NCBI GenBank assembly: GCA_014360805.1
Contig: JACIWU010000025.1
Span: 1-36,256 of the forward strand
Direction: 5' to 3'
Length of the DNA stretch: 36,256 nt
From: Chloroflexota bacterium
GTDB taxonomy: Bacteria > Chloroflexota > Anaerolineae > DTLA01
Positions 12,564-28,068 of the stretch are shown piece after piece. How positions within the stretch are numbered: position 1 is the first letter of the stretch; every line of letters starts with the position of its first letter. The translations under genes were made by a program, and so were the position numbers. Below the pieces are notes generated by a model, which saw nothing but the letters and a program-made list of their open reading frames with translations, was not told the DNA's origin and ran no database searches.

Positions 12564-12828
12564 TGGGCTGAACTTACAAACCGAAAACGTCCAACAAAGA
12601 CTGTGAACAGGACGAGTAGGTATCACAGCGGGACACAGAGAGTCGGCGCACGGTGAGAGTCCGACGTCTGCGCGGATACTGAATGGACCTGGGAGTCGCC
12701 GCCCGAACGCCGGCCACAGCGGCTGGCCAGTAGACGCGGACGGAAACCGCTACCGTTATCTGAGCGGAGGGTATCGGAGACAGGGGTTGTCTCCCGTACC
12801 CGCGAAGGAGTGAGGCTGGCTATTTGTG

Positions 12829-12856
12829 GAATCCGCCATCACGGCGGATTTTTTGT
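12829..12856 (+). terminator. Terminator-like hairpin inside the T-box leader (stem III)
   Basis: AATCCGCC (12829-12836) pairs perfectly with GGCGGATT (12842-12849) across a short loop, followed at once by a run of T. The outer arms GGCTGG (near 12815) and CCAGCC (12861-12866) extend it into a longer stem just before the T-box sequence, so it most likely is T-box stem III. On its own the hairpin plus T-run has the form of an intrinsic terminator. Confidence 0.5.
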
Positions 12857-12894
12857 TACACCAGCCTAACGAGGGTGGCACCACGGGTGAAAAA

Positions 12895-12926
12895 GGCTCT
12901 CGCCCCTCGGCGAGGGCCTTTTTGTT
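12895..12926 (+). terminator. T-box regulated intrinsic terminator
   Basis: GGCTCTCGCC (12895-12904) pairs with GGCGAGGGCC (12909-12918), with one G-U pair, and is followed by TTTTTG-TTTT. It lies directly downstream of the T-box sequence, in the position of the terminator that competes with the antiterminator. Confidence 0.92.
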
Positions 12927-12942
12927 TTCGCGGGGGCATGCC

Positions 12943-12978
12943 TGGGTTCGCCCGTGAACCCAGAGAATTCACATGTGA
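12943..12978 (+). promoter_or_regulatory. Hairpin and palindrome over the trpB2 ribosome binding site
   Basis: After the T-box terminator, TGGGTTC (12943-12949) pairs with GAACCCA (12956-12962). A separate perfect palindrome TCACATGTGA (12969-12978) touches the GAGGAGG Shine-Dalgarno. These could stabilise the mRNA end or act as a second control point; nothing here proves a function. Confidence 0.35.
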
Positions 12979-12990
12979 GGAGGTGCAGCG

Positions 12991-14358
12991 ATGGACGAAG
13001 TCAAGTTTCTACTGCAGGAGTGCGAGATGCCGACCGCGTGGTACAACATCGTGCCCGACCTGCCAGCGCCGCTGCCGCCGGTGCTGCATCCCGCGACGGG
13101 CCGGCCCATCGGCCCCGATGACCTGGCCCCGCTGTTCCCGATGGCGCTGATTGCGCAGGAGGTGAGCGCGGAGCGGTTCATTGAGATACCCGCGGAGGTG
13201 CAGCGGGTGTATCGGCTGTGGCGGCCCACGCCCCTGGTGCGGGCGCGGAACCTGGAACGCGCGCTCCAGACGCCGGCCCGAATCTACTTCAAGAACGAGT
13301 CGGTAAGTCCCGCGGGCAGCCATAAGCCGAATACGGCGGTGGCCCAGGCCTACTACAACAAGGCCGAAGGCGTCCGACGCCTCACCACCGAGACAGGCGC
13401 AGGGCAATGGGGGAGCGCGCTGGCCCTGGCGTGCCGGCTGTTCGGCCTGGAGTGCAAGGTGTACATGGTGAAGGTCAGTTATCAGCAGAAGCCGTACCGG
13501 CGCTCGCTGATGCAGGCCTGGGGTGCGACGGTTACGCCCAGCCCCAGCGAGGAGACCGAGGCCGGCCGTCAGGTGCTGGCCCAGGACCGCGAGTCGCCCG
13601 GCAGCCTGGGCATCGCCATCAGCGAGGCGGTGGAAGTGGCGGCGCAGAACGCGGACACCAAGTACTCTCTGGGCAGCGTGCTCAACCACGTCCTGCTCCA
13701 TCAGACGGTCATCGGCGAGGAGGCGATCAAGCAACTGGCGCTCGCCGATGACTACCCCGATGTCGTCATCGGGTGCGTGGGCGGAGGCTCCAACTTCGCC
13801 GGGCTTGCGTTCCCCTTCATTCGCGAGAGCCTGGCAAGGGGCTTGGGGACTCGCTTTGTGGCCGTGGAGCCGACCGCGTGCCCTTCCATGACCAAGGGGG
13901 CGTGCGCCTATGACTTCGGCGACAGCGTTGGCCTCACGCCGTTGCTCAAGATGTTCACGCTGGGGCACACCTTCGTGCCGGCCGGAATCCACGCGGGAGG
14001 GCTGCGGTATCACGGCGTTGCGCCAGCCCTGTCCGTTTTGGTGAAGGCCGGCGTGGTTCAGCCGGTGGCCTATCGTCAGACGGCCGTGTTTGAGGCTGCG
14101 GTTCAGTTTGCACGAACGGAGGGGATCGTGCCCGCGCCCGAGTCGGCCCACGCCATCCGCGCAGCGATGGACGAGGCGATTCGGTGTCGTGAGGAAGGCG
14201 TGAGCCGCGCCATCCTGTTCAACCTGAGCGGGCACGGCCACTTTGACCTGGCCGCCTATGACGAGTACATGGCCGGGCGGCTCCAGGACTACGAGTACCC
14301 CGCCGAGAAGGTGGGGGAAGCGCTCCGCTCGCTCCCCCAAGTGCCCGGAGAGCCGTGA
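12991..14358 (+). CDS. trpB2: Tryptophan synthase beta-like protein, TrpB2 type
   Basis: PLP enzyme of 455 residues joining L-serine and indole to give L-tryptophan. It belongs to the long TrpB2 branch, which differs from classic TrpB by its length, an N-terminal extension ([12 protein letters not shown]) and usual independence from TrpA. The PLP lysine is K112 in GSHKPNTA, the substrate-binding loop ETGAGQWG is at 134-141, and the phosphate-binding glycine loop [12 protein letters not shown] is near 257-268. A strong GAGGAGG Shine-Dalgarno (12977-12983) precedes the ATG. No trpA, trpC or other pathway gene is nearby. That suggests salvage of indole, or a main pathway encoded elsewhere. Control by the Trp T-box upstream supports a real tryptophan role. 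The next gene overlaps by one base (TGATG). Confidence 0.95.
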
Positions 14359-15449
14359 TGTGTGCTGTGAACCTGCGTGTACCCGGCCCCACACCCCTGC
14401 CGCCGGAGGTGTATGAGGCGCTGGCGGAGCCGATGATCAGCCACCGAGGCGGCGAGTTCCATCGCCTGATGGCCGAGATTCAGCCGCCGCTGCGCGAGGT
14501 TTTCGGGACTGGCAGCGATGTGCTGGCGCTCACGGCGTCGGGGACCGGCGGGCTTGAGGCGGCCATCGTCAACGTGCTTTCCCCCGGAGACGAGGTGCTG
14601 GCCGTGAGCGTAGGGGTCTTCGGAGAGCGGTTTGCCGGCATCGCCCGCACTTTCGGCGCACGGGTTACGATGGTGGAATTCCCAATGGGGCGGCCGGCTG
14701 ACGCACGGGAGGTCGCGGCCGCGCTCGCCGCCACGCGCGGGGCCAAAGCGCTCCTCCTGACCCACAACGAAACGTCCACCGGCGTGGCGAGCGACGTGGA
14801 GGCGATTGCGGCTGCGGCGCGGCAGGTGTCTCCCGACATCTTGATTCTGGTGGACGGCGTGAGTTCGGTGGGCGCGATGCCCATGCAGGCCGACGAGTGG
14901 GGCTGCGATGTGGTGATCACGGCGTCGCAGAAGGCGCTCATGGCTCCGCCGGGGCTGGCGTTGCTGGCGGTGGGGCCGCGGGCGTGGCGCGCCATGGAGC
15001 AGGCGCGGATGCCGCGCGCCTACTGGGATTTGCGAGAGGCGCGGCGATGGGCCGAGCGAGGCGAAACGCCCTTCACCCCGGCCGTGAGCGCGATGCAGGG
15101 CCTGCGCGCGGGCTTGAAGGCGCTCATGGCCGAGGGGCTGGAAGCCGCCTTCGCGCGGCATCGGCGACTGGCGAAGATGACGCGGCGCGGGCTGGCTCAA
15201 CTTGGGTTCCGGCCCGTGGCGCGCGAGGAGAGCGCGTCGCCGACGGTAACGGCGGCCTGGGTCCCGGAAGATGTCCCCGGCGAGGCGCTCCTGCGCGTGT
15301 TGGAGGAGCGCTACGGGGTGGTGCTGGCTCCGGGGCACGTGAAAAACCGGACGATCCGCCTGGCTCACATGGGCTGGGTGCATGAAGCCGACATCCGCGA
15401 GGCGCTGGAAGCGCTGGCGGCGGCGGTCGCGGACGTGAGGAGGGCATGA
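14358..15449 (+). CDS. Class V aminotransferase (alanine/serine-glyoxylate type)
   Basis: PLP aminotransferase of 363 residues, of the alanine-glyoxylate / serine-pyruvate aminotransferase family. The opening VPGPTPLPPEVYEALAEPMI and HRGGEFHRL are typical, with the ring-stacking region TASGTGGLEAAI at 60-70, D166 in ILVDGVSSVGAMP contacting the pyridine nitrogen, and the Schiff-base lysine K192 in ITASQKALMAPPG. Start: the ATG at 14358 overlaps the trpB2 stop by one base; a GTG at 14355 would add one residue. It lies between trpB2 and a serA-like gene, and in several lineages this family replaces SerC or makes serine from glyoxylate or hydroxypyruvate. I infer a role in serine supply for TrpB2. 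Substrate preference cannot be read from sequence alone. Confidence 0.88.
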   Translation: MCAVNLRVPGPTPLPPEVYEALAEPMISHRGGEFHRLMAEIQPPLREVFGTGSDVLALTASGTGGLEAAIVNVLSPGDEVLAVSVGVFGERFAGIARTFGARVTMVEFPMGRPADAREVAAALAATRGAKALLLTHNETSTGVASDVEAIAAAARQVSPDILILVDGVSSVGAMPMQADEWGCDVVITASQKALMAPPGLALLAVGPRAWRAMEQARMPRAYWDLREARRWAERGETPFTPAVSAMQGLRAGLKALMAEGLEAAFARHRRLAKMTRRGLAQLGFRPVAREESASPTVTAAWVPEDVPGEALLRVLEERYGVVLAPGHVKNRTIRLAHMGWVHEADIREALEALAAAVADVRRA

Positions 15450-15450
15450 G

Positions 15451-16422
15451 ATGCGAATCCTGATTACGGATGCCATCGCGCCTGAAGCGGTGAGCCTGTT
15501 GCGCGCGTGTCATCACGTGGACCAGTGCGACCCTGGGCCACCTGCCCGCTTGTGCGAGATCATCGGGGCCTACGACGCCCTGATCGTGCGGAGCCAGACG
15601 CGCGTCAGCCGTGAGGTCCTGAGCCATGCGCGGCGGTTGCGGCTGGTGGCCCGCGCGGGCACCGGCGTGGACAACATTGACGTGGCCGAGGCCCAGCGGC
15701 GTGGCATAGCGGTTGTGTGCGTGCCGGGTGGGAATGCCATCGCGGTCGCCGAGCACACGCTGGGGCTGATGTTGGCCCTGGCGCGACAGATTCCCCGCGC
15801 GGATGCCAGCGTCCGTGCAGGCCGCTGGGAACGGCACGAGTTTGAGGGCATAGAATTGTACGGCAAGACGTTGGGCATCGTCGGGTTGGGGCGGATCGGC
15901 ACGGAAGTGGCGCGGCGCGCGATGGCGTTCGGCATGACGGTCGTCGCCACGGATCCTCTGGTCGCACCAGAACGGGCGGCGGAGATGGGTGTGCCTTTGC
16001 TGGCGCTGGATTCCCTGCTGGCCGTGTCGGACTTCGTCTCCATCCACGCGCCGGCGACTCCCTCCACACGCGGGCTGCTGGGCAGGCGCGAGTTCTCCCT
16101 GGTCAAGGCGGGGTGTCGCATCATTAACTGCGCGCGTGGGGGCATTGTGGACGAGGACGCGCTGGCCGATGCGCTGGCCGAGGGGAGGGTGGCGGGCGCG
16201 GCGCTGGACGTTTTCCAGCGGGAGCCGCCGACGAACGCGCGCCTGCTGCAGGATCCGCGCGTGATCCTGACGCCGCACATCGGCGGCTCAACCGTGGAGG
16301 CGAAGGGGAGAATCGGGGTAGAACTGGCGCGAGAAGTGCTGCGGGTGCTGGATGGACTGCCACCCCTGCATCCGGTCGCGGTGCCCGTTGAGGCGGGGGG
16401 TGCGTCGGTCGGTCCTCCGTGA
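15451..16422 (+). CDS. serA: D-3-phosphoglycerate dehydrogenase-like 2-hydroxyacid dehydrogenase
   Basis: NAD-dependent D-2-hydroxyacid dehydrogenase of 323 residues, close to SerA, which oxidises 3-phosphoglycerate as the first step of serine synthesis. Features: a substrate domain with LIVRSQTRVSREVL and ARAGTGVDNID, a Rossmann loop GLGRIG at 145-150, and the catalytic triad R229 (NCARGGIVDE), E258 (QREPP) and H276 (TPHIGGST). The protein ends soon after the catalytic domain: the C-terminal ACT and intervening domains of long SerA, which carry serine feedback, are absent. It follows the aminotransferase stop directly (one base between them) and is the last gene of the T-box operon. Hydroxypyruvate or glycerate reductase activity is an alternative reading. 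Confidence 0.85.
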   Translation: MRILITDAIAPEAVSLLRACHHVDQCDPGPPARLCEIIGAYDALIVRSQTRVSREVLSHARRLRLVARAGTGVDNIDVAEAQRRGIAVVCVPGGNAIAVAEHTLGLMLALARQIPRADASVRAGRWERHEFEGIELYGKTLGIVGLGRIGTEVARRAMAFGMTVVATDPLVAPERAAEMGVPLLALDSLLAVSDFVSIHAPATPSTRGLLGRREFSLVKAGCRIINCARGGIVDEDALADALAEGRVAGAALDVFQREPPTNARLLQDPRVILTPHIGGSTVEAKGRIGVELAREVLRVLDGLPPLHPVAVPVEAGGASVGPP

Positions 16423-16605: not shown

Positions 16606-16626
16606 GAGTTTTGAATATTGAAACTC
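16606..16626. promoter_or_regulatory. Candidate operator, inverted repeat just downstream of the promoter
   Basis: GAGTTT (16606-16611) and AAACTC (16621-16626) form a perfect inverted repeat around an A/T-rich nine-base core that contains AATATT. It lies at about +8 to +28 relative to the predicted start, where a bound repressor would block the polymerase. IclR-family proteins bind A/T-rich palindromes, so autoregulation by the gene that follows is a fair inference. Confidence 0.5.
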
Positions 16627-16661
16627 ATCGCTCCCGATGCGGGGAGCGACTGGGGAAGCCG

Positions 16662-17444
16662 ATGCGAGAGAAACACGAACCCGCACAAGAGAAGACGCGG
16701 ACAGTCGCCAAGGCGCTGGATGTGCTCCTGTGCTTCAGCCACAGCGAGCCGGAACTTTCGCTGACCGACATTTCGGAGAGGCTGGGCATCCACAAGAGCA
16801 CCATGCATCGGCTTCTCGGCACGCTGGAAGCCAGACGCTTCGTCCAGCGCGACCCCGAAACCGGCCGCTACCGATTGGGCACGCGGCTTCTGGAACTGGC
16901 CTTCCTCGTCCTGGAGCACAACGACCTCCAGCAGCGCGCCCGACCTCATCTGTACCGCCTCTTGGAGGAGTGCCAGGAGACGGTTGACCTGTCGGTTCTG
17001 GATGGGAACAGCGTGGTTTACCTGGAGGTGATAGAGAGCCCGCATCGGGTCAAACTGGCGGCCAGGCCCGGGCAGCGGCTTCCCGCGCACTCTACCGCTT
17101 CGGGGAAGGCGCTTCTGGCTTTTGTTCCCCCTCACGAGTTGGAGAGGCTGCTCCCCGCCGAGTTGACCCGCTACACCGAGAGCACGTTGGCGACTCGCGA
17201 GGCTTTGCTCAAAGACCTGGAAACCGCACGCCAGCAGGGGTTTGCGGTCTCGTTCCAGGAACACGAGGCGGGCATCAACGCGGTGGCTGCGCCGGTGTTG
17301 GACATGCGAGGGTACCCCATCGCCGCGGTGGCGGTCGCCGGCCCGGCTTTTCGCCTGACGCCGGAGCGGATAAAGGAGATCGCGCCTTCGGTGAAGGCGA
17401 CGGCCGAGGCGATCGCGCGCGACGTAGGGGCCGTTGCACTGTGA
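16662..17444 (+). CDS. IclR-family transcriptional regulator
   Basis: DNA-binding regulator of 260 residues. The N-terminal winged helix-turn-helix (about 10-75) shows KALDVLLCFS, LSLTDISERLGIHKSTMHRL and GTRLLELAF. The C-terminal IclR effector domain has LPAHSTASGKALLAFVP, the GFAVSFQEHEAGINAVAAPV signature and a closing helix. I chose the ATG at 16662 because GGGGAAG lies just ahead of it. A TTG at 16611 would extend the protein, but it overlaps the candidate operator and has no ribosome site. It is the first gene behind the consensus promoter, and nine same-strand catabolic genes follow, so it is likely their regulator, with a pathway intermediate as effector. IclR proteins can activate or repress; the promoter and operator layout favours repression. 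Confidence 0.93.
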   Translation: MREKHEPAQEKTRTVAKALDVLLCFSHSEPELSLTDISERLGIHKSTMHRLLGTLEARRFVQRDPETGRYRLGTRLLELAFLVLEHNDLQQRARPHLYRLLEECQETVDLSVLDGNSVVYLEVIESPHRVKLAARPGQRLPAHSTASGKALLAFVPPHELERLLPAELTRYTESTLATREALLKDLETARQQGFAVSFQEHEAGINAVAAPVLDMRGYPIAAVAVAGPAFRLTPERIKEIAPSVKATAEAIARDVGAVAL

Positions 17445-17505: not shown

Positions 17506-17868
17506 ATGAACAAAGGTCCTTTCGTTGTAGCCGCCGAAGTGGAGGGGGAATATCGGACGCCTCCCCGCGTATCTAAGTTGCTCCTCAGCCCTAAGTCCGT
17601 AGGCACCAAGGCCGTTTCCATGGGGCTGAACGTTACCGAGGTCGGCAGCATGATCCCCGATCATGTGCACGAGGACTCGGAAGAGGTGATGTTCATCATC
17701 AGCGGGCGCGCCAAACTGGTGATTGAGGGCGAGGGCGAGTGGGAAGTGGGGTCCGAGACTGCCATCTATTCGCCCATCGGCAAGAAGCATCGGCTGGAGA
17801 ACATCGGCGACGAGCCGCTGAAACTGGTGTGGGTCTATTCGCCACCGCTCCCGCAGCACTGCAAGTAA
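17506..17868 (+). CDS. Small cupin-domain protein
   Basis: Single-domain cupin of 120 residues. The first cupin motif is seen in IPDHVHEDSEEVMFIISGRAKL (H-x-H, then E), and the second in YSPIGKKHRLENIGDEPLKLVWVY (P-x-G-x3-H). These histidines and the glutamate would bind one metal ion, so an isomerase, epimerase or dioxygenase-like role is possible; many such small cupins act on sugar acids. An AGGAGG Shine-Dalgarno precedes the ATG. It lies second in the IclR-led cluster and just upstream of a TIM-barrel protein. In a sugar-acid or cyclitol route it could carry out the isomerisation step that lacks an obvious enzyme here, but this is only an inference. It could also be a small ligand-binding protein without catalysis. 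Confidence 0.85.
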   Translation: MNKGPFVVAAEVEGEYRTPPRVSKLLLSPKSVGTKAVSMGLNVTEVGSMIPDHVHEDSEEVMFIISGRAKLVIEGEGEWEVGSETAIYSPIGKKHRLENIGDEPLKLVWVYSPPLPQHCK

Positions 17869-17901
17869 CCCAAACTCGGATTATTCTTTAGGAGGAACGA
17901 A

Positions 17902-18816
17902 ATGTTTGAAGCAAGTCGGAAGTTCATGAAGAAGATTGGCCTGCCAGAAGGCGACCTGTGGGATCTGCCCACGTCGGACGCGCGATTCCCCGACGGCGCC
18001 GCGTTCCGCATTGAGGTGCCGACGGTGAACTCCTCGGCGGCGGTTGCGGCCCTGCTGGAGACGGCCGACAAGATGGGCATCACCATCAACCGCGTAACCG
18101 AGACCTACGGCATGTTCCGCCACACGGCGCAGGAAATCAAGGAGTACGTGAAACTGTGCCACGATTACGGGGCGGAACTGCTCATGTCCACCGGCCCGCG
18201 CGCGACCTATGACACCGGCGCGACGGTGCTCTCGCCGCAGGGCGTGCGCATCAGTTACCGCCTGCGCGGCATGGAGCAACTGCTGCGCGGTATTGAGGAC
18301 ATCAAGCGTGGCATTGAACTGGGCGTTCGCGGTTTCCTCATCTACGACGAGGGTATGCTGTGGGTGGTCAACGAGATGCGCAAGGAGGGCGAACTGCCCA
18401 AGGAGATCATTTTCAAGACCTCGGCGCACCTGGGCCACTGCAACCCAGCCTCGTTCAAACTGCTGGAGAGCCTGGGCGCCGATAGCATCAACCCCGTGCG
18501 CGACCTGCAACTGCCCATGATCGCCGCCCTGCGCGCCGCGGTGAAGGTTCCCATTGACGTTCACACCGATAACCCGCCCGGATCCGGTGGCTTCATCCGC
18601 GTGTACGAAGCGCCCGAAATCGCCCGCATTGCGGCTCCCGTGCACCTGAAGACGGGCAACTCCGTGGTTGGCGGGCACGGCGAGATGACCTCCGCGGCCG
18701 AGGGCAAGCGCATGGCCGAGCAGGCCGCCATCGTGGTGGAGATGCTTGGCAGGTACTATCCGCACCTGAAGCAAACCGAGCGCAACGCCGAAGACCTGCG
18801 GATTCCGGTTGTATAG
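17902..18816 (+). CDS. TIM-barrel protein of unknown activity (U32-peptidase-like)
   Basis: Soluble protein of 304 residues with alternating strands and helices typical of a TIM barrel. Visible blocks include ELLMSTGPRATYDTGATV, GVRGFLIYDEGMLWVVNEM, EIIFKTSAHLGHCNPASF, LGADSINPVRDLQLPMIAAL and VPIDVHTDNPPGSGGFIRVY. The SINPVRDL and FIRVYE-PEI-RIAAPVHLK pattern reminds me of proteins filed under the peptidase U32 family, but the U32 signature with its conserved cysteines is absent, so proteolysis is unlikely. Conserved-looking charged residues near strand ends (D, E, K, H) suggest an aldolase, epimerase or lyase. The gene has a TTAGGAGGA ribosome site and follows the cupin gene by 33 bases. 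I do not recognise its reaction. Confidence 0.6.
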   Translation: MFEASRKFMKKIGLPEGDLWDLPTSDARFPDGAAFRIEVPTVNSSAAVAALLETADKMGITINRVTETYGMFRHTAQEIKEYVKLCHDYGAELLMSTGPRATYDTGATVLSPQGVRISYRLRGMEQLLRGIEDIKRGIELGVRGFLIYDEGMLWVVNEMRKEGELPKEIIFKTSAHLGHCNPASFKLLESLGADSINPVRDLQLPMIAALRAAVKVPIDVHTDNPPGSGGFIRVYEAPEIARIAAPVHLKTGNSVVGGHGEMTSAAEGKRMAEQAAIVVEMLGRYYPHLKQTERNAEDLRIPVV

Positions 18817-18833
18817 TTCCGAATAGCGCCTGG

Positions 18834-18872
18834 CGCTGCGGCCTGGCGGGCTTCCCCGTCGGGGCCGCAGCG
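18834..18872 (+). other. Intercistronic hairpin
   Basis: CGCTGCGGCC (18834-18843) pairs perfectly with GGCCGCAGCG (18863-18872). No T-run follows. It probably marks an mRNA processing or stability site between the TIM-barrel and creatininase-family genes. Confidence 0.5.
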
Positions 18873-18904
18873 TCGGCACCCGCGCGAGCGCAAAGGAGGC
18901 ATTC

Positions 18905-19870
18905 ATGCCGAAATGGAAACTGCCGCCGAGTGGCGGCCACATGGATAAACCCCATGGCATCTATTACCAGACGATGACCAAGGCGGAAGTTGAGGAGCGC
19001 CTGAAGACCAACGACATCATCATCATCCCCGTGGGCAGCACCGAGCAGCATGGCGATGCCCAGCCCTTCGGCGAGGACACGTTCCTGGCCGCGCGCATGG
19101 CCGAGGTGGTGGCCGAGGCCACCGGCTGCACCGTGGCCGAGCCGGTCTGGTACGGTTCGCACCCCTTCAATCATCTGGGGATGCCGGGGACGGTGGTAGT
19201 GCCCGAGGATACCTTCATCGCCTACCTGCGGGCCATCATCGCCGGGTTCTGGAACACCGGCTTCCGCAAGCAGATTCTCCTCAACGGCCACGGGCAGGAA
19301 GAGGTCATCCCGCTGGCGCTGCACCAGTTCGCCAAGAAGTACCAGGTGCCGTGCCTGTTGATCTCGCTGCACTGGCCCACGGTGATTCACGATTACCTGA
19401 AGGACAAGGAGCACGGGGGGCCGTTTGACACGCCATTCCGCCACGCCGATGAAGCCGAATGCTCGTACTCCATGGCCCTGTTCCCCGAAATGGTGAAGTT
19501 GGAGAAGGCGGTGGACACCGAGCACAAGGGTTTCATGCCGCCCGGACACGTGGACAAAGGCGGCGAGGTGTACCACGCGCCCATCAAGGGGCACGAGCAG
19601 ATCGGGTTCGGCGGGATAGAGGTCATCATGACGCCGGAAGGCGTGGTGGGCAAGCCGTCGCTGGCCGACCCGTCCAAGGCCGAGGCCGGGCTCAACGCGC
19701 TGTTTGACTACATGGTGCGCCTCATCAACGACATCCTGACGCGGTTCCCGGCCGGCCAGTTGCCGCCCGCCGACAAGATGTCCATGCGCACGCCAGAGGA
19801 GATTGAGGCGGTCCTGAAGGGGCCTTTCCGCGGCGGCAAGCACCTTTACACCATCGCCTACCCGCCATGA
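18905..19870 (+). CDS. iolN: Creatininase-family hydrolase, likely 3-dehydro-scyllo-inosose hydrolase (IolN-like)
   Basis: Metal-dependent hydrolase of 321 residues in the creatininase family. Expected metal and catalytic residues are present: GSTEQHG (E47, H49), D58, NGHGQ (127-131, usually NGHGGN) and HADEAECS (180-187, usually HAGEAETS). It is longer than creatinine amidohydrolase (about 260 residues). In Thermotoga a creatininase-type enzyme, IolN, opens the ring of a diketo-inositol made by IolG and IolM. Here the next two genes encode enzymes that look like IolM and IolG, which is why I favour this call over creatinine or a formamide substrate. A strong AAAGGAGG precedes the ATG. The assignment to IolN is from memory of the family and its neighbours, not from a search. 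Confidence 0.65.
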   Translation: MPKWKLPPSGGHMDKPHGIYYQTMTKAEVEERLKTNDIIIIPVGSTEQHGDAQPFGEDTFLAARMAEVVAEATGCTVAEPVWYGSHPFNHLGMPGTVVVPEDTFIAYLRAIIAGFWNTGFRKQILLNGHGQEEVIPLALHQFAKKYQVPCLLISLHWPTVIHDYLKDKEHGGPFDTPFRHADEAECSYSMALFPEMVKLEKAVDTEHKGFMPPGHVDKGGEVYHAPIKGHEQIGFGGIEVIMTPEGVVGKPSLADPSKAEAGLNALFDYMVRLINDILTRFPAGQLPPADKMSMRTPEEIEAVLKGPFRGGKHLYTIAYPP

Positions 19871-20124: not shown

Positions 20125-21294
20125 ATGCGAGCGTTGGTGTTGGACGGGCAGTTTGCCCCGCGTCCTGACTACCCGGTAACCGAGACGGAGCGGCGGACCC
20201 GTATCGCCCGCAAGGGGAGCAACGTGTGGCGCTACACGACTCTGGAGGTCAAGGACATCCCAGAGCCAGAGGTCGGTCCCGAAGACGTGCTCATCCGGGT
20301 TCGCGCCTGCGGCGTCTGCGGGTCCGATTTGCACCTATACGAGACCGACGAGGACGGCTACCTCATCTACCCCAGTTGGACGAGGCTGCCGGTGGTCATC
20401 GGGCACGAGTTCGCCGGCGAGGTGGTCGGCGTGGGCGAGAAGGTAACGGATTTCAAAGTTGGCGACCTGGTTACCGGAGAGCAGTTGCACTGGTGCGGCA
20501 AGTGCTCCTCGTGCCGCCGCGGGCTGTACAATCACTGTCGCAACATGGGGCGTTTTGGCTTCGTTACCAACGGCGCCTTCGCCGAGTACGTGGCCATGCG
20601 CGACAAGTATGTGTGGAGCATCAACAGTCTGCTGGCGGTGTACGGCGACAAGGATAAGGCATGCGAAGCCGGCGCGCTGGTAGAACCCACCGGCATCTCC
20701 TACAATGGCTTGTTCACGCGGGCGGGCGGGTTCCTGCCAGGCGCGGTTGTCGTGGTGTACGGCGCTGGCCCCATCGGTCTGACCAGCATCGCGCTGTCCA
20801 GGCTGGCGGGCGCCTCCAAGATCATCGTGTTTGAGGTAACGGAGTCGCGGCGCCAATTGGCGCAGCGGTTCGGCGCCGACTATGTGTACAATCCCCAGGC
20901 GCTGGCCGAGCAAGGCTCCAGCCCCCATGAGGTTGTGCTGGAACTGACCCACGGCGAGGGCGCAGACGTGCAGGTGGAAGCCGCCGGCGTTCCCAAAGCC
21001 ACCCTGCCCGAGATTGAGCAGTCGCTGGCGGTGGGCGCGAAGGTGGTGCACCTAGGCCGCCGCGCCGGAGCCGTGCCCACCAGCATCACGGTGTATCAGG
21101 ATACCGGCAGCCAGTCCTTCGGCAGCCTGGGCCATACCGGATGGGGCACGTTCGGCAACATCATCAAACTGATGGCCAGCGGCCGCCTGGATATGACGCC
21201 GATGATCACGGCGCGCTATCCCCTGGAACAGGCCGCCGAGGCCGTTCGCAGCCTTGCGAATCGCGAGGGCGGCAAAGTCATGGTGAAGATCTAG
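20125..21294 (+). CDS. iolM: Zinc-dependent dehydrogenase, likely scyllo-inosose 3-dehydrogenase (IolM-like)
   Basis: Medium-chain zinc dehydrogenase of 389 residues. Catalytic zinc ligands are C65 (ACGVCGSD), H94 and E95 (GHEFAGEVVGVG). A structural zinc is held by C124, C127, C130 and C138. The nucleotide-binding loop is VYGAGPIGL. The protein is longer than standard family members because of an N-terminal segment (residues 10-40) and the insert LYETDEDGYLIYPS after the catalytic cysteine. That insert is, from memory, shared with the Thermotoga enzyme IolM, which oxidises scyllo-inosose to a diketo compound. The creatininase-family gene lies upstream and a Gfo/Idh/MocA dehydrogenase gene follows after 19 bases, completing the trio of that pathway. 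Oxidation of another cyclic polyol or a sugar is the alternative. Confidence 0.7.
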   Translation: MRALVLDGQFAPRPDYPVTETERRTRIARKGSNVWRYTTLEVKDIPEPEVGPEDVLIRVRACGVCGSDLHLYETDEDGYLIYPSWTRLPVVIGHEFAGEVVGVGEKVTDFKVGDLVTGEQLHWCGKCSSCRRGLYNHCRNMGRFGFVTNGAFAEYVAMRDKYVWSINSLLAVYGDKDKACEAGALVEPTGISYNGLFTRAGGFLPGAVVVVYGAGPIGLTSIALSRLAGASKIIVFEVTESRRQLAQRFGADYVYNPQALAEQGSSPHEVVLELTHGEGADVQVEAAGVPKATLPEIEQSLAVGAKVVHLGRRAGAVPTSITVYQDTGSQSFGSLGHTGWGTFGNIIKLMASGRLDMTPMITARYPLEQAAEAVRSLANREGGKVMVKI

Positions 21295-21313: not shown

Positions 21314-22372
21314 ATGGCTGAGAGGACTCGCATCGCCATTATCGGGCTGGGGTTTGGCGTCAACCACTTGCAGATTGCGGCGACTCTGCCCGAAGCGGAA
21401 CTTGTGGCGGCGTCGGACTTGATCCCCGAGCGGGGCCAGGTGGCCGAGGATGTCGGCGCGCGCTTCTACCAGGACTTCCGCCAGATGCTGGACAAGGAGC
21501 GGCTGGATGGCGTCGTGGCGGTGGTGTCCAACGACCAGCACGAGCCGGTCGCCGTGGAGTGCCTGCAGCGCGGCATCCCGGTGCTACTGGAGAAGCCCAT
21601 CGCGCCCACGCTAGAGGCGGCCGACCGCATCATCGCCGCCGCCGATCAGAGCGGCACGCCGCTGCTCATCGGGCATCACCGGCGGTTCTCGGCGTTCGTG
21701 GCGCGGGCGCGGGAGATGGTGCAGGGCGGCGCGCTGGGCGATTTGACGGCTATCGCCGTGCTGTGGACGATCTTGAAGCCCAAGGAGTACTACCAGGCGA
21801 CTTGGCGGACGCGGAAGGCTACCGGCGGAGGCCCGCTGCTCATCAATACCATCCACGACGTGGATGATATTCGCTACATTTGCGGGCGCGAGGTAACCCG
21901 CGTCTTCGCCGAAACGTCCAACCGGACGCGCGGGTTTGAGGTGGAGGACACCATCGCCATCTCCCTGCGGCTGCAGGGCGATGTGGTGGCCACAATCACG
22001 ACTTCGGATTGTGTGCCTTCCATCTGGGCCTATGAGTCCACCACCTCGCCGTGGGAGAATCCCTACTTCTTCTATTCGCCGGAAGATTGCTACTACTTCT
22101 TCGGCACCAAAGGCTCGCTGACCCTGCCGCAGATGCGCCACGTGTGGTATCCGGACGCCGAAAAGGCGGGCTGGCAGTGGCCTTTGCAGGTGGACCGTTT
22201 GGGCGTTACGCCGGTGCACCCGCTGCGGGAGGAGATACGCCACTTCTGCCGGGTGGCGCGACGGGAGGAAGAACCCCGGACAACCGGGCGAGACGCGCGC
22301 CGCACGCTTGAGGTGGTGTTGGCGATCATGAAATCGGGAGAGACGGGCCTGCCGGTGCAGATCGGAGGCTGA
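21314..22372 (+). CDS. Gfo/Idh/MocA-family dehydrogenase
   Basis: NAD(P)-dependent oxidoreductase of 352 residues. The Rossmann start IAIIGLGFGVNHLQIAA, the EKPIAPTLEAA motif (lysine near the active site) and GGGPLLINTIHDVDDIRYI (the usual catalytic H/D segment) place it in the family of inositol 2-dehydrogenase and glucose-fructose oxidoreductase. Given its neighbours I infer the first oxidation of a cyclitol or sugar, as for IolG, but members of this family act on many polyols. CAAGGAGG lies ahead of the ATG. The stop overlaps the start of the AEC permease gene by one base (TGATG), so uptake and oxidation are translated together. Confidence 0.88.
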   Translation: MAERTRIAIIGLGFGVNHLQIAATLPEAELVAASDLIPERGQVAEDVGARFYQDFRQMLDKERLDGVVAVVSNDQHEPVAVECLQRGIPVLLEKPIAPTLEAADRIIAAADQSGTPLLIGHHRRFSAFVARAREMVQGGALGDLTAIAVLWTILKPKEYYQATWRTRKATGGGPLLINTIHDVDDIRYICGREVTRVFAETSNRTRGFEVEDTIAISLRLQGDVVATITTSDCVPSIWAYESTTSPWENPYFFYSPEDCYYFFGTKGSLTLPQMRHVWYPDAEKAGWQWPLQVDRLGVTPVHPLREEIRHFCRVARREEEPRTTGRDARRTLEVVLAIMKSGETGLPVQIGG

Positions 22373-23280
22373 TGGCTGCCGTTCTGAGTCAGTCACTGCC
22401 CATATTGACGTGGATGGTCGCGGGCTTCCTGTTTCGGCAGGCCCGCATCCTGCGTCCCGACGACGGGCACACGATGGCCCGCGTCATTATCAACGCCACG
22501 CTGCCGTCGCTGCTGTTCCTGTCGTTGGCGCGGGCCGAGTTGGCCGCCGGCAGCATTCTCGTTTTGAGTTTCTGCGGCGCGGCCATTCCGCTGGTCTTGC
22601 AGACGCTGGCCCGCCTTGCGGCCAGGGCGATGCGCCTGGAGAAGCCGGTGGCCGGCGTGCTTGTCATCAGCACCATGGTGAGCAATATCGGCTTCTTCCT
22701 GGTGCCGTTCTTCCTGACGTTCTACGGGACGGAGGGAATCAGTCGGCTGGCCGCCTTTGACCTGGGCAATTCGCTGGTGGGCAACAGTTACGCCTATTAC
22801 ACGGCGACGCGGCACGGGACCCATGCGTCGTCGGCGTGGCAGGCCGCGCTCAAGCGCGTGCTTGCGCTGCCCACGTTCTGGGCGAACATCCTGGGCATCA
22901 CGGTGAACCTGGCGGGGCTGTCGCTGCCGGCGTGGCTGGTGCAGATTCTGGAGCCGGTGTCCAAGGCGAACGGGCCTCTCGCCATGCTCACGCTGGGGGC
23001 GTTCATTGAACTGCGGTTTTCCAGGTGGAGGCCCATGCTCGTCGCGGTGGCGCTGCGCATCGCGGGAGGCTGGCTGGCGGGGCAGGCGCTGGTGGCGGCC
23101 TTCGGGCTGCAGGGGCTGGAACGGGCCGCCGTAGCCATGGGCGCGGCGATGCCCATCGGCATCGTGGTGTTGGTGTACGCGTCTATGGAGGGGCTGGACA
23201 CGGATTTTGCGGCGGGCGCCATCTCGCTGTCCATGCTGGTGGCTCTGGCCATCACGCCGTTTTTGTTGGCAGCGTACTGA
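22372..23280 (+). CDS. AEC-family permease (auxin efflux carrier type)
   Basis: Membrane transporter of 302 residues with about ten hydrophobic segments, for example LPILTWMVAGFLFRQARIL, VLVISTMVSNIGFFLVPFFL and LALPTFWANILGITVNLAGL. The fifth block with a conserved Asn-Ile-Gly after a helix break (SNIGFF) and the near-duplicate in the second half (AAMPIGIVVLVYASMEG) fit the ten-helix AEC fold. Known bacterial members carry malate, malonate or related acids. Here it is the only transporter in the cluster, so it probably moves the pathway substrate in or an acid product out. Translationally coupled to the dehydrogenase gene upstream. Confidence 0.88.
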   Translation: MAAVLSQSLPILTWMVAGFLFRQARILRPDDGHTMARVIINATLPSLLFLSLARAELAAGSILVLSFCGAAIPLVLQTLARLAARAMRLEKPVAGVLVISTMVSNIGFFLVPFFLTFYGTEGISRLAAFDLGNSLVGNSYAYYTATRHGTHASSAWQAALKRVLALPTFWANILGITVNLAGLSLPAWLVQILEPVSKANGPLAMLTLGAFIELRFSRWRPMLVAVALRIAGGWLAGQALVAAFGLQGLERAAVAMGAAMPIGIVVLVYASMEGLDTDFAAGAISLSMLVALAITPFLLAAY

Positions 23281-23320
23281 TCGCACAACAGGCGACTATG
23301 TTGACATAAGGAGGACGCAC

Positions 23321-25033
23321 GTGAGAATCCTGCGGGTGGACATGACCAATCTGACGACGAAGTGGGAACCCGTTCCCGAATCCTACGAGCAGTTTGGCGG
23401 GCGCGGCCTCATTGCGAAAATCCTCGTGGAGGAAGTGCCGCCGCTTTGCGAACCGCTGGGGCCGCACAACAAACTGATCTTCGCGCCGGGGCTTCTGGGC
23501 GGCACGAGCCTGTCTAGCGCTGGGCGACTGTCGGTGGGAGGCAAAAGCCCGCTGACGGGAGGGGTCAAGGAGGCCAACGCGGGCGGAACGGCCGGGATTG
23601 TGCTGGGGCGGCTGGGCATCAAGGCCATCGTCATGGAGGGCCAGCCTTCGGATGGCCGACTGTACCAGTTGTACGTCTCGCCCGACAAGGTGGAATTGCT
23701 CCCTGCCGACGAGTGGCGGGGCCTCGGCACGTATGCCACCACGACGGCCGCGCGCGAGCGCTGGGGCGCGAACTGCACCATCGTGAGCATTGGCCCCGCC
23801 GGCGAGAGCCAACTGGCCGCGGCCAGCATCGCGTGCACCGGCGAGGGCGACCAGGTCAGTCGCCAAGCGGCTCGCGGGGGCCTGGGCGCGCTGATGGGCA
23901 GCAAGGGCCTGAAAGCCTTGGTGCTGGACGCAGGGAACGCAGGCCCCGCAGCCTTGGCCAATCCGGAACTGTTCCGCACGGCGGCCCGTCGCTTCGGGCA
24001 GGAGTTGTGGAATAGCCCCAAGACCGGCCACAAGGGGTCGTCGCACCTGTATGGAACGGCGTCCATCGTGGGCGCGGTCAACGAGATGGGGGCGTTTCCG
24101 ACCCGGAACTTCCGCCAGGGGCGGTTTGAGGAGGCCGAGAACCTGCGCGGCGAGCACCTGCGCGAGGTTACGCTGGCCCGAGGCGGGCAGGTGGGCACGC
24201 GCTGCATGCCCGGCTGCGTGATCGCCTGTTGCAACGTGTTCGTGGACGAGGGTGGCAAGCCCATCGTCGCAACGCTGCAGTACGAGACCATCGGGCTGCT
24301 CGGCTCCAACCTGGGCCTGGGCACGCTGGACGAGGTGGCGGAACTCAACTATATTTGCAACGACCTGGGGCTGGACACGATAGAGACAGGCGCCGCGCTG
24401 GGCGTTGCCGCCGAGGCCGGGCTGGCGCGCTTTGGCGACAAGGATAGTTTCGTGGCGCTGTTACAGGAGGTGGCCAAGGGCAGCGTTGTCGGCAAGATGA
24501 TCGGGCAGGGCGCGGTTGTTACGGGGCGCGTCCTGGGGGTCAAGCGCATCCCCGCGGTGAAGGGGCAAGCCATGCCAGCCTACGACCCGCGCGCGCTCAA
24601 GGGCAACGGTGTAACCTATGCCACGTCGCCTATGGGCGCGGACCACACGGCGGGCAATGCCTTCGGCTCGCGGGCCACGGTGAACCCGCTCGGGGTTGAG
24701 GGCCAGCGGGCGGAGTCGCGCAAGTTGCAGTTGGGCGCGGCGATGCTGGACTACACCGGCCTGTGCCTGTTCGCGCGACCGCCCGTCTTCGCCGACCCGC
24801 AACTGATGGTGGATCTCATCAACGGCCGATTCGGGTGGGGCTGGACGGTGCAAGACCTGGAGCGCATGAACCGCACGGTGCTGAAACTGGAACTGGAATT
24901 CAACCGTCGGGCGGGGTTCACGTCGGCGGACGACCGCCTGCCGGAGTACATGCTGGAAGAGCCGCTTCCGCCCCACAACACCGTCTTTGACGTGCCCGAC
25001 TCGGAAGTGGACGGCACGCTGGCCGACTTGTAG
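23321..25033 (+). CDS. AOR-family tungsten/molybdenum oxidoreductase
   Basis: Oxidoreductase of 570 residues with a bis-pterin tungsten (or molybdenum) centre and one 4Fe-4S cluster, normally oxidising aldehydes to acids with ferredoxin. The GTG at 23321 is chosen for its AAGGAGG site and the family-typical opening MRILRVDMTN. Pterin-binding features are GGRGL (26-30) and GRLSVGGKSPLTGG. Cluster ligands: C295, C299 and C303 in RCMPGCVIACC, spaced X3-X3 instead of the common X2-X3, plus C482 in DYTGLC. The second pterin segment NDLGLDTIETG (347-357) is present. Shorter than typical AOR (about 600). No MoaD-like gene is next to it, unlike the second AOR at the end of the window. In this cluster it may oxidise or reduce an aldehyde, keto or acyl intermediate of the catabolic route. 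Confidence 0.92.
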   Translation: MRILRVDMTNLTTKWEPVPESYEQFGGRGLIAKILVEEVPPLCEPLGPHNKLIFAPGLLGGTSLSSAGRLSVGGKSPLTGGVKEANAGGTAGIVLGRLGIKAIVMEGQPSDGRLYQLYVSPDKVELLPADEWRGLGTYATTTAARERWGANCTIVSIGPAGESQLAAASIACTGEGDQVSRQAARGGLGALMGSKGLKALVLDAGNAGPAALANPELFRTAARRFGQELWNSPKTGHKGSSHLYGTASIVGAVNEMGAFPTRNFRQGRFEEAENLRGEHLREVTLARGGQVGTRCMPGCVIACCNVFVDEGGKPIVATLQYETIGLLGSNLGLGTLDEVAELNYICNDLGLDTIETGAALGVAAEAGLARFGDKDSFVALLQEVAKGSVVGKMIGQGAVVTGRVLGVKRIPAVKGQAMPAYDPRALKGNGVTYATSPMGADHTAGNAFGSRATVNPLGVEGQRAESRKLQLGAAMLDYTGLCLFARPPVFADPQLMVDLINGRFGWGWTVQDLERMNRTVLKLELEFNRRAGFTSADDRLPEYMLEEPLPPHNTVFDVPDSEVDGTLADL

Positions 25034-25041
25034 GGCGGCGT

Positions 25042-25079
25042 TGCGGGCCGGGCCTGGCGCCTGGCCCGCATTCTTCTTT
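25042..25079 (+). terminator. Terminator-like hairpin between AOR and reductase genes
   Basis: TGCGGGCC (25042-25049) pairs with GGCCCGCA (25063-25070), followed by TTCTTCTTT. The Shine-Dalgarno of the next gene follows within ten bases. It likely gives partial termination, lowering expression of the last two genes. Confidence 0.6.
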
Positions 25080-25091
25080 CGGGAGGCGCAG

Positions 25092-27032
25092 ATGCAGAGT
25101 CCGTATCCGCATCTCTTCAGCCAGGGGCGCATTGGCCGCATGGAGATTCGCAATCGGATCGTGATGTCGCCCATGGGGACCAACTATGCCTCGGACACAG
25201 GCGGCGTAACGGAGCGGATGATCCGCCACTATGCCGAGCGTGCGCGCGGCGGCACCGGCCTCATCATCGTGGAGAACACCACCGTGCAGTATCCGCAAGG
25301 CCGGGGCGCGGTGGCGCATAACCGCATAGACCGCGATGAGTTCATCCCAGGGCTGAACCGGCTGGCCGAGGCGATCCAGCGGTACGGCGCGAAGGCGGCC
25401 ATTCAGATCAACCACGTGGGCGCGCTGACCGCCCCGCACCTGTGCGGGGGCACGCCGGTGGGGCCGTCGGATGTGCCGGTGGCTCCGGGACGTCCCACGC
25501 CAAGGCCGCTGTCGGTGGACGAGATTCAGGAGATCGTGCGATGCTTCGCGGCGGCTGCGGCGCGCGCAGTCAGGGCGGGATTTGACGGCGTTGAGATTCA
25601 CGGCGCGCACGGGTATCTGATTAGCCAGTTTCTGTCGGCGTACACCAACCGCCGCACCGACGAGTACGGGGTCGGGCTAGAGGGCCGCGCGCGGTTTGCG
25701 CTGGAGGTCATCGCCGCCGTGCGCCAGGCCGTCGGGCGGGGCTTCCCGCTGTGGATGCGCATCAACGGCGACGACTTCGTGGAAGGGGGCAACACCCAGG
25801 ATGAGTACAAGGCGCTGGCGAAAATGCTGGCGCAGGCTGGCCTGGACGCGCTGCATATTTCGGCGGCGTTCCCCGCGGCTCACCACAAGCAGATAGAGCC
25901 GATGCGGTTCCCCCAAGGCTGGAAACTGTACCTGGCCGAGGGCATTCGCGGGGTGGTGAACGTGCCTGTGCTGGCCGCCAGCGTCATCCGCGAGCCGGCA
26001 TTCGCCGATGAGGCCATCGCCGCGGGCAAGATGGACTTCGCGGTGCTGGGGCGCGGCCTGCTGGCCGACCCCGAGTGGGCGAACAAGGCCCGCGACGGCC
26101 AGGCGCACCGCATCCGCCGCTGCATCTCGTGCAACGTGTGCTCCAAGTCGCGCAGCGTGGACGGCATCCCCATCCGCTGTACGGTGAACCCGTTCCTGGG
26201 GCGCGAGGAGGTGTTTGACGATTTCGCACGCGCGCCGACCCCCAAGCGTGTGCTGGTGGTGGGCGGAGGGCCTGCGGGCATGGAGGCGGCATGGGCGGCG
26301 GCGCGTCGCGGCCACCGCGTTGTCCTCTGCGAGCGCGGCGCGGAACTGGGCGGGCAGATGATGTTGAGCAGCCGCCCGCCCGGGAAGGAGAAGATTCTCT
26401 GGCTTCACGACACGCTGACGCGGCAATTGCGCGAGGCGGGCGTGGAGGTGCGCCTGGGCGTGGACGTTACGCCCGAATACGTGGCGGCCCAGAAGCCCGA
26501 TGCGGTCATCGTGGCGACGGGCGGCAAACCGCTCCGCCCGCCCATCCAGCGGCTGGACGATGCGCGCGTGGTTACGGCGTGGGATGTGCTCGGCGGCAAG
26601 GCCGACGTGCAGGGCAAGACGGTGGCCATGATCGGCGCGGGGCTGGTGGCCTGCGAGACGGCGCTGTACCTGGCCGCCCGGGGCAACCGCGTTACGATGG
26701 TGGAGATGCTGGACCGAATCGCGCCCGACGTGGAGCCGACGACGCGCATTGACCTGCTGGAGGAACTGGAGCGCGCCGGAGTCATCGGGTACGCGGCGTG
26801 TCGGGCGAAGGAAGTGGCCGAAGAGGGGCTGGCCTGCGAGTTTGCCGATGGCAGACCCGCGCTCTTCGCCGCCGACGTGATCGTGTTGGCGGCGGGCGCC
26901 CAGGCCGAACGCTCGTTGGCCGACGCGCTCGCCTCGCTGGACGTGCCCGTGCACGTGGTGGGCGACGCCGTGCAGCCGCGCCGCCTGGTCAACGCCATCT
27001 ACGAGGGCCTGCTGGCGGGATGGCAGGTCTGA
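25092..27032 (+). CDS. Old-yellow-enzyme-type Fe-S flavoprotein reductase (2,4-dienoyl-CoA / 2-enoate reductase family)
   Basis: Three-domain flavoenzyme of 646 residues that reduces activated C=C bonds with NAD(P)H. Residues 1-340 form the FMN-binding TIM barrel (NRIVMSPMGTNYA; GVEIHGAHGYLISQFLS near 166-182). Residues 344-363 hold the 4Fe-4S ligands C344, C347, C350 and C363. Residues 385-646 are the FAD/NAD(P) part, with VLVVGGGPAGMEAA and VAMIGAGLVACETALYLAARG. The cysteine spacing X2-X2-X12 differs slightly from the common X2-X3-X11. It matches enzymes such as 2,4-dienoyl-CoA reductase, 2-enoate reductase and bile-acid reductases. In this cluster it may reduce an unsaturated keto or ring intermediate. 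Its place next to AOR suggests a ferredoxin- and flavin-linked anaerobic pathway. Confidence 0.92.
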   Translation: MQSPYPHLFSQGRIGRMEIRNRIVMSPMGTNYASDTGGVTERMIRHYAERARGGTGLIIVENTTVQYPQGRGAVAHNRIDRDEFIPGLNRLAEAIQRYGAKAAIQINHVGALTAPHLCGGTPVGPSDVPVAPGRPTPRPLSVDEIQEIVRCFAAAAARAVRAGFDGVEIHGAHGYLISQFLSAYTNRRTDEYGVGLEGRARFALEVIAAVRQAVGRGFPLWMRINGDDFVEGGNTQDEYKALAKMLAQAGLDALHISAAFPAAHHKQIEPMRFPQGWKLYLAEGIRGVVNVPVLAASVIREPAFADEAIAAGKMDFAVLGRGLLADPEWANKARDGQAHRIRRCISCNVCSKSRSVDGIPIRCTVNPFLGREEVFDDFARAPTPKRVLVVGGGPAGMEAAWAAARRGHRVVLCERGAELGGQMMLSSRPPGKEKILWLHDTLTRQLREAGVEVRLGVDVTPEYVAAQKPDAVIVATGGKPLRPPIQRLDDARVVTAWDVLGGKADVQGKTVAMIGAGLVACETALYLAARGNRVTMVEMLDRIAPDVEPTTRIDLLEELERAGVIGYAACRAKEVAEEGLACEFADGRPALFAADVIVLAAGAQAERSLADALASLDVPVHVVGDAVQPRRLVNAIYEGLLAGWQV

Positions 27033-27057
27033 ACGGCAGTGGGGAGGTTTGCGTGAG

Positions 27058-28068
27058 ATGAAAGCGGCTTTGCTCTACGGCCCGCGCGACATCCGCCAGG
27101 CCGACGTGGCCAAACCGGAGCCTGACCCCGGAGAGGTCGTCGTTCGGGTGCGGGCCACGGGCATCTGCGGGTCTGATTTGCACATGTACACAGGCGACCG
27201 TCCTGCGGACTACCCGCAGATTCTGGGCCACGAGTTCGCGGGCGATGTGGCGGCGGTGGGGGAAGGCGTGCAGGGCCTGGCGCCCGGCGACCGCGTAACG
27301 GCGGAGCCGAATTTCTCCTGCGGTGCGTGCATCTATTGCCGCGAAGGGCTGCCCAACCTGTGCGTGAACCGCGTGGGCATGGCGATCAACTGGCCGGGCA
27401 CGCTGGCGGAATATGCGAAGGTTCCCGCCCGATTCGTGTGGCGTATCCCCGACGGGATGTCGTATCGCCAAGCCGCGCTGGTGGAGCCGCTCATGGTGGC
27501 GGTGCACGCGGTGCGGCGGGGGCGCGTGCGGGTGGGCGACACGGTGGCCGTCCTGGGCTGCGGGGCCATCGGGCTGTTGACCGTGGCCGCGGCGAAGGTG
27601 GCGGGGGCGCGCGTGTTCGCCGTGGACATCGTGCCCGAGAAACTGGCCCTGGCGCGCCGGATGGGGGCCGAGGCGACCTTCAACGGGCGCGATGCTGACG
27701 CGCTGGAGCGGATTCGCGCGCTCACACCGGCAGGCCAGGGGCCGCTCGTGGTGTTTGAGACGGCGGGCGTGGGCGCCACGGTGCAGCAGGCGGTGGAACT
27801 GGTGCGGGGCGGCGGACGGGTCGTGCTGGTGGGCCTCTCCACACGCCCTGCGCCGGTGGTGCCGATGGCGGTGGCGCGCAGGGAGTTGGAGATTCTCGGC
27901 TCGTTCATCTACTACGCGGGCGAGTTTGACATCGGCATTCGGCTCATCGCCAGCGGCACCGTTGACGCCGAGGCGCTGGTGGGGATGGCGGTGGGCCTGG
28001 ATCAGGCCGACGCGGCGTTCCGCGCTGCGGAGTCGGGCGCGGTGGCGAAGGCGATGGTGGAGCCGTAG
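27058..28068 (+). CDS. Zinc-dependent alcohol/polyol dehydrogenase
   Basis: Medium-chain dehydrogenase of 336 residues, similar to sorbitol/threonine dehydrogenases. Catalytic zinc ligands are C37 (TGICGSDLH), H58 and E59 (GHEFAGDV). Structural zinc cysteines are C88, C91, C94 and C102. The nucleotide loop is VLGCGAIGLLTVAAAK, and VFETAGVGATVQQAVELV follows as usual. The ATG at 27058 is preferred because GGGGAGG (27041-27047) lies ten bases upstream; a TTG at 27049 is in frame. It is the last gene of the IclR-led run and the second zinc dehydrogenase in it. The two differ in length and lack the same insert, so they should act on different hydroxyls or intermediates. Confidence 0.92.
   Translation: MKAALLYGPRDIRQADVAKPEPDPGEVVVRVRATGICGSDLHMYTGDRPADYPQILGHEFAGDVAAVGEGVQGLAPGDRVTAEPNFSCGACIYCREGLPNLCVNRVGMAINWPGTLAEYAKVPARFVWRIPDGMSYRQAALVEPLMVAVHAVRRGRVRVGDTVAVLGCGAIGLLTVAAAKVAGARVFAVDIVPEKLALARRMGAEATFNGRDADALERIRALTPAGQGPLVVFETAGVGATVQQAVELVRGGGRVVLVGLSTRPAPVVPMAVARRELEILGSFIYYAGEFDIGIRLIASGTVDAEALVGMAVGLDQADAAFRAAESGAVAKAMVEP

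Follow-up and report, generated by a model that had tools for sequence, protein, structure and literature searches.

Between a small cupin and a ring hydrolase of the creatininase family, the Chloroflexota genome considered here encodes a 304-aa protein that is left without an assigned family by the Pfam and NCBIfam cut-offs, and the question raised by this locus is which reaction the protein (U32L, the name used here) contributes to its operon. An earlier note had described it as a barrel with some resemblance to U32 proteins, and as a catabolic enzyme that could either act as a lyase or replace a missing epimerase. Throughout, the window is the whole stretch of DNA analysed (36,256 nucleotides).

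The U32L gene and its operon

The U32L frame translates from an ATG start to 304 aa with zero internal stops, and is overlapped by a 359-codon antisense ORF (17881-18960). Despite this ORF, the plus-strand frame is the conserved one, given its close copies and at least 439 relatives. In 60 related genomes, copies 97-98% identical occur in two genomes of the same genus and copies 74-83% identical in six further ones, with some family member being present in 25 of the 60; a sample of the phylum retrieved a member in 23 of 301 genomes, and at least 439 relatives were confirmed among 592 pattern matches in a scan of named genomes. Full-length relatives are thus present in many genomes, and U32L is confirmed as a real gene. 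It belongs to the following array:

16611-17444, + strand: IclR-family regulator (PF01614, 162.5 bits)
17506-17868, + strand: small cupin, 33 bases upstream of U32L, assigned via its homologue L065:4111-4476 (PF07883)
17890-17895, + strand: ribosome-binding site of U32L, AGGAGG, read from the sequence, about 8 bases 5' of the ATG
17902-18816, + strand: U32L, 304 aa, cysteine-free U32-type TIM-barrel protein (assignment by profile and model)
18905-19870, + strand: IolN, 3-dehydro-scyllo-inosose hydrolase family (NF041098, 532 bits, cut-off 245), in the U32L-linked IolN group
20125-21294, + strand: IolM, scyllo-inosose 3-dehydrogenase family (NF041097, 537 bits, cut-off 450)
21314-22372, + strand: Gfo/Idh/MocA dehydrogenase, IolG-like (134.5 bits, under the IolG cut-off of 355)
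22372-23280, + strand: AEC-family membrane transporter (PF03547)
23207-25033, + strand: aldehyde ferredoxin oxidoreductase-type protein; the ORF overlaps the preceding gene and its start is uncertain
24987-27032, + strand: old-yellow-enzyme type flavoprotein, BaiCD-like (527.6 bits, under the cut-off of 825)
27049-28068, + strand: zinc-type alcohol dehydrogenase, distant from IolM (224.7 bits, cut-off 450)

The map agrees with the position given to U32L in the earlier note, and the ring hydrolase downstream is, judged by its profile score, IolN. No NCBIfam match was obtained for the window cupin. Elsewhere in the window, a TrpB-like enzyme, a class V aminotransferase (BhcA-like, 292 bits, under cut-off) and a phosphoglycerate-dehydrogenase-like protein (397.5 bits, cut-off 454) are encoded in a row at 12991-16422, perhaps as a serine-related set, and a second aldehyde ferredoxin oxidoreductase-type ORF lies on the minus strand at the contig end (34439-36232).

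Fold, ancestry and conserved residues

AlphaFold2, supplied with 70 aligned family members, returned a model (pLDDT 95.6, pTM 0.93) in which strands and helices alternate as a barrel, and the solved structures matched by it in Foldseek and VIA-align are mostly TIM-barrel enzymes, as the earlier note had anticipated. The underlying alignment (A2) retains 70 of 107 full-length sequences, those at least 88% identical having been removed and 5 partial or over-long ones excluded. Class II aldolases, pyruvate kinase, the U32 protein Mk0906, pyruvate carboxylase and isocitrate-lyase-type enzymes occupy the top Foldseek ranks (TM 0.4-0.5), and the leading VIA-align matches are CutC (Z 16.4), RuBisCO-like proteins (up to 15.9) and U32 (Z 14.7). 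These ranks characterize U32L as a TIM barrel without a close solved relative, and the predicted fold alone does not tell its function. Several members of the PEP mutase/isocitrate lyase superfamily are also found among the Foldseek matches (TM about 0.4-0.5), and no Pfam match links U32L to this superfamily. Sequence searches of the PDB yielded chance matches only, the best at E 0.23 for the protein and 0.027 for the 70-row profile.

The sole Pfam match of U32L is to U32 (PF01136), at 15.8 bits and under the gathering cut-off of 22.4; a relative (G303) exceeds this cut-off with 23.8 bits, and U32 is matched at E<=0.01 by 50 of the 70 family members (best 1.1e-10). NCBIfam gave no match (best E 0.12). 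When the A2 profile was compared with six genuine U32 proteins, drawn from three genomes, hhalign reported a probability of 96.7 (E 3.9e-10) over residues 68-223, the negative control, with six AP_endonuc_2 proteins that the window's genome encodes (IolO among them), staying at 1.4. A motif search for the U32 cysteine signature, with a pattern based on the six U32 proteins and on the known signature, found it in none of the 70 members; cysteine occurs in at most 19 of the 70 sequences at any alignment column, and the U32 motif starts just beyond the part aligned by hhalign. These comparisons place U32L as a remote, cysteine-free branch of the U32 TIM-barrel superfamily, matching the likeness to U32 without its cysteines that had been sensed in the earlier note. 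At E 0.001 no genuine U32 protein was detected in the window's genome. Searches of open-access papers for U32 proteins acting as lyases or in biosynthesis yielded nothing relevant, and no publication on the U32L family was found in the open-access literature.

All 70 members have E38, R64, D149, S174, D201, R233 and K250, and 69 have K172, N197, D219 and R122, further arginines being R36 (67/70) and R120 (65/70). Residues of the barrel mouth were assigned from the strand ends of the AlphaFold2 model, which assigns K172, D219 and K250 to strands 5, 7 and 8, respectively, and D149 to a position just past strand 4. We infer from this conservation that some of these residues may be catalytic. The barrel mouth had been proposed as the place to look for metal or Schiff-base residues, and it does offer K250 and K172 as candidate Schiff-base lysines; the typical strand-6 lysine is absent from the family, and none of the alignment columns of the 70 sequences holds an invariant histidine (H259 is present in 67, and H176 and H221 are missing from branch E, one of the branches A to F defined below). 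The 45 members of branches A-D carry H176, R200, H221 and N224 almost without exception, whereas the 22 members of branch E have other residues there. This difference suggests that A-D probably share substrate features absent from E, and because it affects mouth positions, a single reaction across the whole family is unlikely.

Genomic context of the family

The family is hosted by Chloroflexota (Anaerolineae), Bacillota, Actinomycetota (Streptomyces), Bacteroidota, archaea (Desulfurococcaceae, Bathyarchaeota) and others. Neighbours were surveyed up to 10 kb on each side at the best 80 of at least 439 loci, a sample in which close relatives are over-represented. Counting relied on tblastn, since at some loci the gene calls missed U32L in favour of long antisense ORFs, and its overlap filtering removed U32L itself at 2 of the 80 loci (L061 and L085); many loci lie on short contigs, so absences of a neighbour mean little. 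Among these best 80 of at least 439 loci we counted IolN (21), cupin (20), Ldh_2-type dehydrogenase (17), aldehyde oxidoreductase (15), fumarase subunits (14), mandelate-racemase family proteins (13), malic enzyme (12), nitroreductase (12), CoA-transferase (11), AsnB (9), phosphonopyruvate-decarboxylase-like proteins (4) and IolM above 50% identity (1). Where IolN is present, it lies a short distance behind U32L in the same orientation, and a cupin usually precedes the pair.

Branches A-E were defined here by neighbours and tree position, F being a group of paralogues. With F as root, IQ-TREE analysis of 70 sequences supported A+B+C with 100, D with 99 and E with 100, and branch C is nested beside the Chloroflexota A group (97). 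Branch A (Chloroflexota) displays the order IclR-cupin-U32L-IolN-AOR-Ldh_2, and branch B (Bacillota, some archaea) the order Ldh_2-U32L-fumarase-malic enzyme. Branch C (Streptomyces, Rhodospirillaceae, others) combines ATP-grasp, U32L, AsnB, AEC transporter and TauD, with NRPS in Streptomyces. Branch D (Bacteroidota, Lachnospiraceae, others) lies within or near glycan genes and brings together C-C_Bond_Lyase, U32L, an aldo-keto reductase or D-2-hydroxyacid dehydrogenase, PrpD, a decarboxylase, ATP-grasp and fumarase. In branch E, e.g. in Thermomicrobium, U32L is accompanied by mandelate-racemase family proteins and sugar ABC transporters, whereas branch F comprises the U32L paralogue at contig C21 of the window's genome, which is followed by two DapA-Fae fusions. 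HpcH/HpaI or C-C_Bond_Lyase proteins and D-2-hydroxyacid dehydrogenases recur in other branches.

Some of these loci deserve a separate comment. The C21 fusions (L125:11079-12563 and 12576-14051) join a DapA/HpaI-type aldolase to a formaldehyde-activating enzyme domain, the latter scoring 122.5 and 127.5 bits with TIGR03126 (cut-off 118), and comparable pairs occur at L137, L139 and L142. Such a fusion would be sensible if the aldolase releases formaldehyde and the attached domain traps it. An orphan, roughly 150 aa long (L031:6262-6723, L041:3373-3813 and relatives), with no accepted Pfam match, adjoins a nitroreductase-family protein, and CoA-transferase genes as well in most of the longer U32L loci. 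A distant U32L (30.7%) is carried by an Enterobacter chuandaensis plasmid (L121:10901-23138) in what looks like a biosynthetic cluster, together with a phosphotransferase, an aminotransferase, two iron-containing redox enzymes, a nucleotidyltransferase and an MFS transporter.

Proposed reaction, competing readings and known systems

The U32L family almost surely performs small-molecule chemistry, and the catabolic role suggested in the earlier note fits this metabolic, non-proteolytic setting. The partners handle 2-hydroxyacids, fumarate, malate and pyruvate, aldehydes, and the ligation or amidation of acids; an enzyme splitting an oxo- or hydroxy-acid into an oxo-acid plus an aldehyde, or operating in reverse in the biosynthetic clusters, would suit all of them and supply every partner with a substrate. 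Such an association indicates the compound class of the U32L substrate, not the reaction. We tentatively favour a metabolic enzyme whose substrate is a small, anionic 2-oxo- or hydroxy-acid and whose likeliest activity is that of an aldolase-like C-C lyase, a possibility still short of an even chance. In favour of a lyase, the C21 paralogue precedes two DapA/HpaI-type aldolase fusions and the best Foldseek chains include class II aldolases (E 3.2e-7); against it, TIM barrels as a class resemble aldolases to this extent (TM 0.4-0.5), and VIA-align puts CutC and RuBisCO-like proteins first. The nesting of the AsnB-linked biosynthetic branch in the IolN/fumarase-linked catabolic one would fit one reversible reaction used in both directions.

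In mechanistic terms, the conserved arginines R36, R64, R120, R122 and R233 would hold the substrate carboxylates, and K172 or K250 could serve as Schiff-base or general base together with D149, D219 and N197. In the window operon the substrate would be a linear keto-acid that the IolN-type hydrolase sets free by opening the ring of a cyclic 1,3-diketone; its cleavage would give an aldehyde and an oxo-acid, which may be passed on to the neighbouring dehydrogenases and the aldehyde oxidoreductase. It is tempting to draw a concrete version in which an acid of the 5-keto-gluconate type is split into tartronate semialdehyde and dihydroxyacetone, but this we regard as distinctly doubtful.

A decarboxylase, dehydratase or hydratase of C4-C6 oxo- or hydroxy-dicarboxylates is somewhat unlikely. 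Genes near U32L for fumarase subunits, malic enzyme, PrpD-family proteins and AsnB speak for it, and the acidic and lysine residues at the barrel mouth would suit this chemistry too; however, fumarase and PrpD are already hydro-lyases in those clusters, so a further one is less needed.

Improbable, to a greater degree, is an isomerase or epimerase that would take the place of IolO on the product of the U32L-linked IolN. This reading draws on gene order, since U32L stands beside IolN as IolO does on contig C32 of the same genome, where IolM (580 bits), a zinc dehydrogenase, IolN (527 bits) and IolO follow one another. The C32 IolO, directly after this second IolN, scores 354.7 bits with NF041099 (cut-off 300), and with IolO encoded there U32L is no stand-in for a missing epimerase, contrary to what had been supposed in the earlier note. 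Given its place in the gene order, it may still do the work of IolO on a different substrate. The co-occurrence with the creatininase-family gene, which the same note had singled out as a check, was found throughout: IolN above cut-off adjoins U32L on the same contig in 9 of 9 genomes with a U32L copy at least 74% identical. IolO also exceeds its cut-off in six of these nine genomes, and in a seventh (G324) IolO-like proteins fall under it (best 273.7 bits), one of them beside a second IolN; the remaining two, which lend the isomerase some support, contain no full-length match (none in G334, partial ones of at most 58.6 bits in G323). Against the isomerase stand also the lack of relationship between U32L and IolO (hhalign probability 1.4; BLASTP E 0.45) and the fact that IolN is not nearby in most U32L branches.

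The window and C32 copies are 58% identical for IolN and 56% for IolM. In a FastTree phylogeny of 31 IolN proteins, rooted with three archaeal IolN-like proteins near U32L that fall outside the other groups, the U32L-linked bacterial IolN form one group with L155, which is not known to be linked (support 0.99; 0.75 without L155), and this group is sister to the IolO-linked IolN (0.98); 20 positions distinguish 21 U32L-linked from 4 IolO-linked proteins. Our reading is that IolN-IolO and U32L-IolN are two parallel modules, the window carrying the paralogous one. A literature search on IolN and the creatininase family gave one loosely related paper, on phloroglucinol degradation.

Branch D invites a bolder speculation. 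At four of its loci (L060, L070, L071 and L074) a phosphonopyruvate-decarboxylase-like gene lies 2-3 genes from U32L; the three decarboxylases scored reach 409.6, 397.6 and 419.6 bits with TIGR03297 (cut-off 312.5), and none of the four host genomes, two of which are MAGs, matches PEP mutase TIGR02320. Two options follow: the decarboxylase accepts a different 2-oxo acid, or what it consumes is produced independently of PEP mutase. In the latter event U32L of branch D, and perhaps of A-C given their predicted sharing of active-site residues with D, would make the 2-oxo acid for a pathway that bypasses PEP mutase and leads to phosphonates or to carboxylate or sulfonate analogues of them. This has a very slim chance of being right: oxaloacetate or another 2-oxo acid may be the decarboxylase substrate, the MAG status of two hosts weighs against it, and branches A-C contain no phosphonate genes among the families scanned. 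Hardly better are the prospects of a wider picture in which U32L would be a new class of barrel forming or cleaving C-C (or C-X) bonds, derived from U32 by cysteine loss, serving degradation in anaerobes but synthesis in Streptomyces and in surface-glycan clusters, and feeding the branch-D decarboxylase without PEP mutase; if true, the branch-D route would give nature a second way into phosphonates or analogues.

A true U32 peptidase, or a U32-type tRNA or quinone hydroxylation factor, is scarcely credible, and the peptidase was rejected, in spite of the homology to U32 and of the 'U32 family peptidase' label in 2 of 4 plasmid records found (the other 2 being unannotated there), because none of the 70 members has the cysteine signature, the operons concern small-molecule metabolism rather than protein, tRNA or quinone modification, and the search at E 0.001 detected no genuine U32 in the window's genome.

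Fixing the reaction would correct many annotations in bacteria and archaea, where the family is labelled peptidase if annotated at all; it would also explain the second IolN/IolM module in Anaerolineae, name a step in Streptomyces and Bacteroidota clusters and show what the U32 barrel does without its cysteines.

Among known systems, peptidase U32 (PF01136; Mk0906, PDB 5d88) is likewise a TIM barrel and superimposes on U32L over 183 residues (rmsd 2.8 at the VIA-align Z given above). The core aligned between the two families contains D149-x-G, x-S174 and the acidic residue that follows strand 6. Where U32 has HGxxC..C, the U32L family has D-x-H-T-x-N-P, and unlike U32 it consists of a single 304-aa domain found in organic-acid operons. 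IolO (5-keto-L-gluconate epimerase, NF041099, AP_endonuc_2), the enzyme that converts 5-keto-L-gluconate to D-tagaturonate, in agreement with its NCBIfam name, is also a TIM barrel and adjoins IolN at C32; it has no sequence or profile relation to U32L, and U32L as an IolO homologue was rejected on the hhalign and BLASTP values given above and on the absence of a Pfam or NCBIfam match to that family. Class II fructose/tagatose bisphosphate aldolases (PDB 1gvf, 2fjk), barrel enzymes acting on C-C bonds, provide the best Foldseek chain (E 3.2e-7, TM 0.48) at 10-15% identity. They carry metal-binding histidines, whereas the U32L family, with no fully invariant histidine, would have no conserved zinc triad. 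Finally, the inositol pathway of Thermotoga maritima, reportedly the subject of a paper by Rodionova et al. (2013) that PMC3750489 cites, proceeds through IolM, IolN and IolO. According to PMC5931981, the IolN product of the Thermotoga pathway, 5-keto-L-gluconate, is turned into D-tagaturonate. The window encodes IolM and IolN homologues above cut-off, and U32L instead of IolO.
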